Source: Akkermansia muciniphila
Lineage (GTDB): Bacteria > Verrucomicrobiota > Verrucomicrobiia > Verrucomicrobiales > Akkermansiaceae
Assembly: GCA_945890645.1 (NCBI GenBank)
Contig: CAMDCV010000012.1
Coordinates: 1-64,000, forward strand
Direction of reading: 5' to 3'
DNA: 64,000 nucleotides
Shown: in pieces, positions 60,195 through 64,000 of the stretch
How positions within the stretch are numbered: the stretch's first letter is position 1
Layout of the letters: each line of letters begins with the position of its first letter
Position numbers and translations under genes: made by a program
Notes under the pieces: generated by a model
The model's database searches: none
Told to the model about the DNA's origin: nothing
What the model saw: the letters and a program-made list of their open reading frames with translations, nothing else

Positions 60195-60575
60195 TTATTT
60201 ACCCCGGTAAAAGAACATGCCCTTATTGCGGCCATCGTGATTATACATGACACCACGCCAGACGATTTTTCCGTTCTCGACACTTTTCGTGAGTACGCAG
60301 GTGGCGCTGGATTTGCCATTGGTGAATTCCGTCAGAAGGAGTTCCCCTTTGCGATGATTTGTGCCACGCAAGGCATACACGCGCCCCGATCCACCGGGAC
60401 AAAAATAACTGCCGCTCACCGAGCCATCGTCATGCCACGTCAAGGAAAACACTGCTGCCTGATTACCCACTCCCCCGACATAGCCATTGGTTTCTGCCGC
60501 TTGCGACAATGATCCAAAGCCTAAAAATACAAATGCGGAAAAAAACAAATGAATGAGATAGATGCGTGTATTCAT
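60195..60575 (-). CDS. Small secreted beta-rich protein
   Basis: ATG 60575 gives 126 residues with a signal peptide (IYLIHLFFSAFVFLGFGSLSQAA). The mature 100 residues are rich in Gly, Ser, Tyr and Phe and look like a small beta-barrel (AVFSLTWHDDGSVSGSYFCPG, then KIVWRGVMYNHDGRNKGMFFYRG). Two cysteines could form a disulfide. The pattern GSVSGSYF...R.YALRGTN resembles small secreted proteins that recur in Verrucomicrobiota; function unknown. Confidence 0.7.
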   Translation of the reverse strand: MNTRIYLIHLFFSAFVFLGFGSLSQAAETNGYVGGVGNQAAVFSLTWHDDGSVSGSYFCPGGSGRVYALRGTNHRKGELLLTEFTNGKSSATCVLTKSVENGKIVWRGVMYNHDGRNKGMFFYRGK

Positions 60576-60642
60576 AAAAATGGCAATTTCAATTTTACAA
60601 AATTCAGACAAATGGCGGAATCTGCGTCAAGCAGAAATTAGC

Positions 60643-61092
60643 TCAACGCCACATGTAAGACTGCTTGGAAGCAACAATCGTTCCACCACTTCGAACAGTG
60701 GTGCGCCATGCTAGTACACGACCATTTTTACTGTAATCATGGCCTGCAATGGTGAAATACGCATCAAAGCGTTTCGTAGCTGAACCACTTTTGACCAATC
60801 GCTTGATCTTGCTTCCTGAACCAGCCTGCAAGTATTCGAAAACTATCTCGATGGGTTGCTCCTTAGACGTTGGTTGCTTCCAGATGGCATGGTAGTATTG
60901 CCCCACTTTTTGCTGCCGCTCTTCGATCGTGACCGCGCCATGCAACAAGCGCTGAACTTCTCCCCGCGCCATAAGATCGTCATTTTGATCGAACATCTTT
61001 TCACGCAAATGGTATTGCTTGACCGTGAGCCCCATGGGATCAGAGACGCACGACACCACCAAAAGACTGAGAAGAACGAGCCACTGTTTCAT
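60643..61092 (-). CDS. Lipoprotein of unknown function
   Basis: ATG 61092 gives a 149-residue precursor with the lipobox VVSC (MKQWLVLLSLLVVSC). The mature part has a helical N-terminal half (LTVKQYHLREKMFDQNDDLMARGEVQRLLHGAVTIEERQQKVGQYY) and a beta-rich C-terminus (RFDAYFTIAGHDYSKNGRVLAWRT). ERQQKVGQYYHAIWK resembles a conserved helix in similar anonymous PVC lipoproteins. A weak promoter, TTGTGC-N17-GACACT, ends 9 bp before the ATG. Confidence 0.72.
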   Translation of the reverse strand: MKQWLVLLSLLVVSCVSDPMGLTVKQYHLREKMFDQNDDLMARGEVQRLLHGAVTIEERQQKVGQYYHAIWKQPTSKEQPIEIVFEYLQAGSGSKIKRLVKSGSATKRFDAYFTIAGHDYSKNGRVLAWRTTVRSGGTIVASKQSYMWR

Positions 61093-61147
61093 TGCCGAGC
61101 CAGTGTCCCCGATTCGCACGCAAAGCACAAATCAGAAATCAAAAATC

Positions 61148-62386
61148 TTATAGAGGCAATTTGGTATGGCGTCGGACGAGATCCAGCACGGATTGACTAA
61201 CAGCTTTTTTGAAACCATTGCGATCGCGCAGATGAAAGACTTTTTCCGTGATTGTCGGCAGGTTTCTTCTCGCAAACGCCAACCACGCCGTGCCCACGGG
61301 TTTTTCTGGGGTTCCACCGCTAGGCCCAGCGATGCCCGTGACCGCCACCGCCACATCGGCAAGGGATACGCGCAACGCTCCTTCTGCCATTTGCCGCGCG
61401 ACCTCTTCACTGACGGCACCGCATTGCTGCAAAACGTTTTCTTCAACTCCCAGAATTTCAACCTTCGATCGATTCGCATATGTCACAAATCCATGCGTAA
61501 AAACATCGCTACATCCTGGCACATCGGTCAAACGCGATGCCACTAGACCGCCCGTGCAACTTTCCGCCGTGGCTAGTTTCATTCCCTGTTTACGCAATTG
61601 CCGCAACACCACCGCCTCTAACGAAGTCCCATCATCACTGACTAGATTGGCCGCAAAGGCAGCCTCTGCGATCCCCCGACTCCGCAATACAGCCTCTTCA
61701 CTTCCAATCAAACGTAGATCTACCTCACCGATGCGCGCGCAATAGCCATATTCCAAGCCATTAACTCCCGCCAATTGATCATCGATCGCTTGATGAAAAT
61801 CACTTTCGCCAATGCCGGTGAATTTCATTTCCAACATCTTACGATCTGACGAGACACCCGCCAAGGCCCGCAAACGTGGTTCCACTTCAGCAAAAAACAT
61901 CGGATACAATTCACGCGGGGGTCCGGGCAATAAGAAAATCGCGCAGGGTCGGATCGGATTCAAACGCGGCGGCACATAAATCCCGGGTGCCGTGCCATTC
62001 CCATTGGGTAACACATCGGCACCCACGGGAGACTGCGCTTGCTTGCGGTTGGAAGGAGCCATCACTTTTTTTCGCGTGGCAAAAAAGGCTTCGAGCGAAC
62101 GCAGAGCCGCTTCATCTTCGATCAATTCACAGCCTAACACCGCCGCCGTCGCTTCGCGCGTAATGTCATCGCTTGTCGGGCCCAATCCGCCAGTAATGAT
62201 GACTACATCACTGCGTCGCACCGATTCTGAGAGCGTTTCCTCGATGGTTGCGCCATCAGGAATCGTGATTTGTCGAGCCACGCGAAGCCCTAGTCGAAAC
62301 AACTCGCGTCCCAGCCAAGTGCCGTGAGTGTTCTGCGTATTTCCTAACAGCAATTCCGTTCCCGTATTGATGATTTCGATGTGCAC
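61148..62386 (-). CDS. cinA: CinA-family nicotinamide nucleotide amidase / competence-damage protein
   Basis: The 412-residue protein has the N-terminal MoCF-like domain (IEIINTGTELLLGNTQNTHGTWLG, then VVIITGGLGPTSDDITREA), a middle segment, and the C-terminal PncC deamidase domain (KLATAESCTGGLVASRLTDVPGCSDVFTHGFVTYANRSK, and VAVTGIAGPSGGTPEKPVGT). Relatives deamidate NMN or hydrolyse ADP-ribose, recycling pyridine nucleotides. The track begins at 62434; GTG 62386 is chosen since MoCF proteins start directly with this strand and a promoter ends 6 bp upstream. Confidence 0.94.
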   Translation of the reverse strand: MHIEIINTGTELLLGNTQNTHGTWLGRELFRLGLRVARQITIPDGATIEETLSESVRRSDVVIITGGLGPTSDDITREATAAVLGCELIEDEAALRSLEAFFATRKKVMAPSNRKQAQSPVGADVLPNGNGTAPGIYVPPRLNPIRPCAIFLLPGPPRELYPMFFAEVEPRLRALAGVSSDRKMLEMKFTGIGESDFHQAIDDQLAGVNGLEYGYCARIGEVDLRLIGSEEAVLRSRGIAEAAFAANLVSDDGTSLEAVVLRQLRKQGMKLATAESCTGGLVASRLTDVPGCSDVFTHGFVTYANRSKVEILGVEENVLQQCGAVSEEVARQMAEGALRVSLADVAVAVTGIAGPSGGTPEKPVGTAWLAFARRNLPTITEKVFHLRDRNGFKKAVSQSVLDLVRRHTKLPL

Positions 62387-62436: not shown

Positions 62437-63870
62437 TTACGGAGCCGCTTCCTCGATGATTTGCTCGCGGGTTTTGATATCGAGAATTAAGCGGTTTGTG
62501 CCAAGCTCATTGGCTACCTTACCACTTACGCGAACGCGTTTGCCTTCTAGCCCACCTAGTTCACTCACCGACATACCTTCCACGCCCAGATTGGTGAGAT
62601 ATCGGCCAATGATTTTTTCGGGGGCTGGCCCATCTAACATGATATAGAGGGTCTTACTCGTACTACTGAGTTTCACCTCTTTGACAGGTGCAACGATGAC
62701 AACTTCCTCACCCATCTGCTGGCGAAGAAGCTCGACTTCTCCGGGCGCATATTCTGATTTTTTCGGCTGCGCCGGAACGGTGGGCGTGGGTTTTTTGGGA
62801 GGGATGGGCGAAGCCGCAGCCGCTTGTTGCTGTAGGGCTAGGGCTTTGCGCTCGATTTCCGCACGCATTTGATCTTCTTCCGAGAGGGAACGAGTTTTTT
62901 CCTCTTCTCTAACGACTGGCGCTGCTGGGGTATTGGTCGTTACCGCAGGAGTCACTTTCTCGGTCGGATTGCTGGCAGGGGCGACTTTCGTCACGACAGG
63001 ACTGGGAGGCGTCCCCTGTTGATTATTCAAGAACATTACGATTCCGATGGCGAGACCGGCCACGACGACGATACCACCAAAGACAAACCAAACTGTGCTG
63101 CCACCGCTTTTAGCGGAAGCGAGGGAAACGGGAGTAGAGGGCGCGGACGGTGTGGCGAGTGCGGTCGAGAGAGCTACCGAAGGTGCGATCGTTTTTTGCG
63201 GAACGGCACCCCCATTCAAAACATCCATTGCCTGAGCAGGACTCAGCTCACGACTTTTTGCCGCGCGCATCCAACCACTCAATAGTCCCGCCGTGCTACC
63301 CGTCATGACTCGACCAGACCAACCCATGGTCGCTTCCACTAGCGCCGCCAGTTCTTTTACGCCACCGACGCCGGGGCGAAGTCCCAACCATTTCATGGGA
63401 TCCACACCAAAGCGAAACTGCTCCACATCTCCGATGACTTCGACATCCTCCGGTTGTAAAACCAACCATTCAGCCACCTGACCAAAGATTTTTTCCAAGT
63501 CTAACATCAGCGCTAAAGCCGACTCAGCCAACAAACGCCCCTGCGCCACATTTAACGTTGCGGAGGCACAGGCCTCCCGCAAGCTCGGAGAGCTGCGGAT
63601 TTCGGTGACCAGGAATGGCATGCCATCCACGGGGTCACAACCACCTTCGATGACGCGCCGGAGACTAGGATGGTTCAACTCCTTCATGCGTTCCACCGCC
63701 TGACCATAGGCAATTAATTCATCGCCCTCTAATCCGCCTTCTTCCGCACCGAAAGGAAAAAACCGCTGCAACAAAACTTCGCTTCCCGACTGCGTGTCCA
63801 TGGCTAGGAACACCGCGCCGGTGCTATCCTGTGAAACCATTTCCTCAATTTGAAAGCGCCTGCTTGACAC
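62437..63870 (-). CDS. Membrane-bound pseudokinase with C-terminal OB-like domain
   Basis: GTG 63870 gives 477 residues. The first 210 read as a decayed protein-kinase fold: IEEMVSQDSTGAVFLAMDTQSGSEVLLQRF (glycine-rich loop region; the VAIK lysine is missing), MKELNHPSLRRVIEGG, and WLVLQPEDVEVIGDVEQFRFGVDP, where HRDLKPEN and DFG motifs should be. A single membrane helix follows (WFVFGGIVVVAGLAIGIVMFL), then a Pro/Ala/Thr-rich linker with a coiled stretch, and a C-terminal 90-residue beta domain with GKVANELGTNRLILDIKTRE, OB-like. No kinase activity is expected. Confidence 0.78.
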   Translation of the reverse strand: MSSRRFQIEEMVSQDSTGAVFLAMDTQSGSEVLLQRFFPFGAEEGGLEGDELIAYGQAVERMKELNHPSLRRVIEGGCDPVDGMPFLVTEIRSSPSLREACASATLNVAQGRLLAESALALMLDLEKIFGQVAEWLVLQPEDVEVIGDVEQFRFGVDPMKWLGLRPGVGGVKELAALVEATMGWSGRVMTGSTAGLLSGWMRAAKSRELSPAQAMDVLNGGAVPQKTIAPSVALSTALATPSAPSTPVSLASAKSGGSTVWFVFGGIVVVAGLAIGIVMFLNNQQGTPPSPVVTKVAPASNPTEKVTPAVTTNTPAAPVVREEEKTRSLSEEDQMRAEIERKALALQQQAAAASPIPPKKPTPTVPAQPKKSEYAPGEVELLRQQMGEEVVIVAPVKEVKLSSTSKTLYIMLDGPAPEKIIGRYLTNLGVEGMSVSELGGLEGKRVRVSGKVANELGTNRLILDIKTREQIIEEAAP

Positions 63871-63877
63871 ATTGAAA

Positions 63878-63906
63878 TTCCTATCATCGTGAAGACGTGA
63901 CGACAA
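63878..63906 (-). promoter_or_regulatory. Pseudokinase gene promoter, leaderless geometry
   Basis: TTGTCG, a 17-bp spacer, TAGGAA, then seven bases (TTTCAAT) to GTG 63870. The track uses the TTG of the -35 box as start. Confidence 0.55.
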
Positions 63907-63915
63907 CTCTCATTA

Positions 63916-64000
63916 TCAAAAATTTGCATCCAAATGACGAAGCACATCTAACAAACGCACCACGGGCATTCCGACCACATTCGAGAAATCACCACGTATT
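63916..64000 (-). CDS. maf: C-terminal end of Maf-like nucleotide pyrophosphatase (cut by window edge)
   Basis: The minus-strand frame from 64000 to the TGA at 63916-63918 reads GDFSNVVGMPVVRLLDVLRHLDANF, matching the conserved C-terminal GxxSNVVGLP of Maf/YhdE septum-formation inhibitor proteins, which hydrolyse non-canonical nucleoside triphosphates. About 28 codons are inside the window, too few for the ORF track. The pseudokinase promoter lies just beyond its stop. Confidence 0.75.
   Translation of the reverse strand, partial: IRGDFSNVVGMPVVRLLDVLRHLDANF

Follow-up and report, generated by a model that had tools for sequence, protein, structure and literature searches.

Near the end of the window, the 64,000-nucleotide stretch of Akkermansia muciniphila DNA analyzed here, lies a gene for a membrane-spanning protein with a degenerate kinase-like N-terminal half and a C-terminal OB-fold domain (Table 1). 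An alternative TTG start at 63906 would extend the product by 12 residues, and the host genome measures 3.8 Mb. The gene is flanked by maf and cinA, an order that is kept in most genomes of the genus and absent in other genera, where its neighbors are lepA/recG, lepA, priA, ndk, or purQ. Given that the neighbors differ between genera, the locus does not point to a partner. A functional link among the pseudokinase, maf, and cinA was considered and dropped, since the shared order is confined to the genus and three of its genomes (G003, G005, and G008) carry cinA without an adjoining pseudokinase gene. Downstream of cinA, the window also encodes two small exported-looking proteins of unassigned function (60195-60611 and 60643-61128, both on the - strand), the second of which also adjoins cinA elsewhere in the genus.

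Table 1. Positions in the window of the pseudokinase gene, its parts, and its neighbors
Feature	Position	Strand	Basis and remarks
Pseudokinase gene (kinase-derived domain, membrane helix, linker, OB domain)	62437..63870	-	477 aa, GTG start; orthologues
Kinase-derived domain (residues 5-222), lacking the activation segment	63205..63858	-	hhalign 99.2%; PDB profile search; fold search
Q35 codon, replacing the VAIK lysine (β3)	63766..63768	-	Alignment; next residue R36 invariant
W135-L136-V137, replacing HRD	63460..63468	-	Alignment; W in 36/36 core members
V156-D157-P158, replacing DFG	63397..63405	-	Alignment; P in 36/36 core members
Single membrane helix, residues 263-281	63028..63084	-	Hydropathy; same place in 38/38 sequences checked
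Low-complexity Ala/Pro/Glu/Lys linker, residues 282-388	62707..63027	-	Least conserved part
OB-fold domain, residues 389-473, predicted extracytoplasmic	62452..62706	-	AlphaFold2 pLDDT 86.8; Foldseek
cinA, downstream neighbor	61148..62386	-	Recognized from sequence; likely GTG start at 62386
maf, upstream neighbor, cut by window end	63916..64000	-	Recognized from sequence

The kinase ancestry of the N-terminal half became visible only with family profiles, as Pfam and PDB searches with the single 477-residue protein returned nothing useful and NCBIfam gave matches at chance level only. A profile built from 29 kinase-like domains of the family (A4) was compared by hhalign to a second profile, drawn from eight Verrucomicrobial kinases that are mostly intact, yielding a match of 99.2% probability (E 9.4e-20, 137 columns) that spans β1 through the catalytic loop; the controls, one with the profile reversed and eight with shuffled columns, scored 0.1-1.2%. 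When the PDB was searched with A4, nearly all of the 60 matches obtained (up to E 1) were protein kinases, with Staphylococcus aureus Stk1 ranking best (E 9.6e-6) and Mycobacterium tuberculosis PknB and PknA also matched. A structural comparison with kinase folds, which an earlier note on this DNA had suggested as a check, points the same way: the 50 best PDB matches found by Foldseek are all protein kinases, including PknB and PknI. This fold match is weak evidence, since the AlphaFold model of the domain is a poor one (pLDDT 46) predicted from four sequences only, and the TM-scores against kinases are 0.24-0.39. On the strength of these sequence profiles, together with the half-degenerate relatives and the trees described below, the first half of the protein descends from a Hanks-type Ser/Thr kinase. 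The Ser/Thr kinase layout that the earlier note assigned to the whole N-terminal half holds up to the DFG strand and again in the C-terminal helices; in the alignment to intact kinases, deletions have removed the activation segment, APE included, and much of the stretch behind it.

Alignment to true kinases also bears out the proposed absence of the VAIK lysine, HRD, and DFG, with WLVLQPEDVEV and QFRFGVDP standing in for the catalytic loop and the DFG strand: the former aligns with HRDLKPSNLMV and the latter with QVKIVDFG. Loss of the β3 Lys, the HRD Asp, or the DFG Asp marks a pseudokinase, and here all three are gone. The replacements are themselves conserved, an expectation raised by the earlier note. 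Across 36 core members of the family, W takes the place of the HRD His and P that of the DFG Gly without exception; the HRD motif as a whole becomes W-[VLI]-x, and the β3 lysine gives way mostly to R (27 members) or Q (7), with E or H in the rest, followed in every member by R. The glycine loop, SQDSTG in the window protein, has Q-D and, further on, a G in 36/36, and the column of the HRD Asp holds E in 24/36 and D in two members, which lack the H and R. None of the 36 keeps the β3 K, the HRD motif, or the DFG Asp, so that the features of an active Hanks-type kinase (β3 Lys, HRD Asp, DFG Asp, and glycine loop) are absent throughout. As judged from these alignments, the kinase-derived half has lost the residues that would bind ATP and Mg and carry out catalysis, and the sharing of the same motif changes by all core members indicates that the catalytic loss is old and the replacements fixed.

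Hydropathy supports the single membrane helix noted previously; one strong hydrophobic helix follows the kinase-like domain in every sequence checked. The proposed OB-like domain was likewise recovered, with the C-terminal 109 residues modeled by AlphaFold2 as an OB fold and matched by Foldseek to the OB folds of tRNA synthetases and RPA; a Pfam search of this domain found no family over its cut-off. From another family of the order, a profile of the OB domain retrieved free-standing OB proteins whose N-termini look, by eye, like signal peptides. On the basis of the single helix and these secreted-looking relatives, the OB domain is predicted to be exported and the kinase-like half cytoplasmic. 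The small secreted-looking OB proteins in question comprise L120-L133, with a tandem pair in L124. Longer relatives with a second OB-like domain at the C-terminus were seen in genera g11 and g6 (L022, L023, L080, L081, and L024).

Genome searches placed the family largely within the Akkermansiaceae. Among 57 related genomes, matches were found in 40, being full-length in most of the genus, and those restricted to the N-terminus corresponded to more distant true kinases. The pseudokinase gene occurs in 9/10 genomes of the genus and in several genera and dozens of genomes of Akkermansiaceae, a recurrence that argues against a chance origin of the degenerate form, and its open frame is kept in nearly all relatives. 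With the cut-off set at E <= 1e-22, the search of the order hit 92 of 387 genomes, all but one of them from the window's own family; the sole exception is an intact OB kinase, and no dead member was found outside Akkermansiaceae at this threshold among the 387. With the same cut-off, a sample of the phylum gave matches in 14 of 388 genomes. One heavily sampled genus of the family, g3, returned no match at E <= 1e-22 across many near-complete genomes; most of its sister genera have the gene.

Both the kinase-like and the OB domain are under purifying selection. Estimates of dN/dS are 0.07-0.21 for the kinase-like domain, 0.24-0.39 for the middle region, and 0.07-0.26 for the OB domain where synonymous change is unsaturated. 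Identity within the genus is 38-72% for the kinase-like domain versus 29-52% for the OB domain, and within the former conservation is higher in the N-lobe than in the C-lobe (mean entropy 1.26 versus 1.92 bits).

Half-degenerate and intact relatives were also recovered. Two relatives belonging to a different genus of the family, L024 and L091, keep the β3 K, HGD/HGN, APE, and the α-F Asp and lack the DFG Asp; L024 still passes the Pkinase cut-off (1.2e-12). Trees join these two with the pseudokinases (support 99/96 and 100/97), the finer branching order being unsure owing to long branches. Another family of the order contains intact proteins of the same architecture (L111/L117-L119 and L122), in which a kinase domain with VAIK, HRD, DFG, and APE is followed by a single membrane helix, a linker, and a C-terminal OB domain that the pseudokinase-family OB profile matches with E values down to 7e-18. 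These intact proteins differ in their position in the tree, which lies among active kinases and not with the pseudokinases; a sister relationship to the pseudokinases received no support, and the OB fusion of dead and intact forms may go back to one event or to more than one. We put forward only tentatively, as less likely than not, that a kinase-TM-OB receptor lost catalysis in Akkermansiaceae and now relays a signal from an extracytoplasmic ligand of its OB domain to active kinases acting in trans; intermediate steps of this change would survive today, giving a natural active-to-dead series within one bacterial order.

Of the known systems, the PASTA receptor kinases (Stk1/PknB type) resemble the family in their succession of kinase, helix, and extracellular sensor, and provide its best PDB sequence match; they are active enzymes and bear PASTA repeats where the Akkermansiaceae family has an OB fold. 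In a 2025 review, bacterial pseudokinases are distributed over seven families, and the text includes neither Verrucomicrobia nor an OB fold (PMC12599244). The ActPs3 group described there from actinobacteria, with the transmembrane peptidoglycan-synthesis protein MviN, which has a carbohydrate-binding domain, is similar in that all catalytic motifs are degraded, the activation loop is deleted, a membrane helix lies C-terminal to the domain, and aromatic residues occupy the former active site (PMC12599244). As a precedent for action by binding, the pseudokinase domain of MviN binds no ATP and recruits FhaA (PMC12599244). No MviN chain appeared among the 60 PDB matches of the family profile up to E 1, in a copy of the PDB that may not include MviN. 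GLW pseudokinases, mainly proteobacterial, also combine an absent catalytic triad with a membrane helix after the domain, and have GLW for HRD and LLLL/W for the β3 lysine (PMC12599244); the Akkermansiaceae family differs, with W-[VLI]-x at the first site and R or Q in most members at the second. The proteins described here constitute a lineage-specific family of bacterial transmembrane pseudokinases, which may match a group within the 42-family classification underlying the review. In the literature searched, no paper connects Akkermansia with Hanks kinases and OB folds. Few pseudokinases are known from bacteria, and they have hardly been tested; the occurrence of dead and half-degenerate members in one family, with intact kinases of the same architecture in a neighboring family of the order, lets one ask directly what a receptor keeps on giving up catalysis.

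The protein is probably a catalytically dead receptor kinase that senses an OB ligand outside the membrane and acts inside, through its pseudokinase domain, by binding and not by phosphorylation, the mode that the earlier note had suggested. Such a binding-type receptor fits a protein that has given up catalysis and kept its structure, and that carries an outer binding domain beyond its membrane helix, and conservation of the dead form across one family makes transfer of the signal by binding the probable mode. OB folds commonly bind oligonucleotides or oligosaccharides; in the proposed mechanism, the OB domain outside the membrane would bind a ligand, and this would shift the protein's position or alter its dimer state. 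The pseudokinase domain, mainly via its strongly conserved N-lobe, could then dock onto an active kinase or another cytoplasmic effector and activate, inhibit, or scaffold that partner, with no phosphorylation required for the transfer. It would accordingly function as a receptor that acts on active kinases, either allosterically or as a scaffold.

Kinase-like proteins with altered motifs, such as SelO and POMK, perform non-standard chemistry, and the domain could conceivably be a divergent enzyme that still binds nucleotide or another ligand. The invariant residues around what was once the pocket (the Q14-D15 pair of the glycine loop, R36 next to the lost lysine, W135, F154, and P158) suit this idea, as do weak matches to APH phosphotransferases from 5/29 family members (best E 2e-4). 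We nevertheless regard it as unlikely, because the position of the HRD Asp has no invariant acidic residue, that of the DFG Asp has none at all, and the domain has lost both its glycine loop and its activation segment. It is also improbable that the kinase-like half is a mere cytoplasmic anchor or dimerization module for a membrane-tethered, extracytoplasmic OB binding domain that does the work: the same OB domain does exist alone in secreted-looking proteins of the order, and g11 relatives and L024 carry a second copy, but the supposed anchor is better conserved than the OB domain and has the low dN/dS given above. That every catalytic motif is lost might further suggest a decaying, functionless kinase gene, a reading that purifying selection, the open frame in nearly all relatives, and identical replacement residues across genera render scarcely credible; it was rejected on dN/dS, and the fixed replacements also refute it in the main.

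In the preferred reading, a receptor acting by binding, the partner could be an active kinase of the same cell. The earlier note had asked for an active paralogue, and listing the kinases of the host genome by Pfam search revealed intact ones: eleven have VAxK, HRD, and DFG and are candidate partners of the pseudokinase, the nearest type to it being L102. Intact kinases of the L102 type are also present in g10, g12, and g14, where no clear pseudokinase member was detected, so they do not need the pseudokinase. By a simple pattern check, two further kinases of this genome depart from the standard motifs: L105 (G000:C17) keeps HRD with no DFG found, and L106 (G000:C11) has no plain HRD or DFG. 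The same genome encodes a second degenerate kinase (L040:4106-5587, + strand, G000:C29), the N-terminal half of which lacks HRD and DFG and is followed by a membrane helix and then an FGE-sulfatase domain (PF03781, 5.6e-23).
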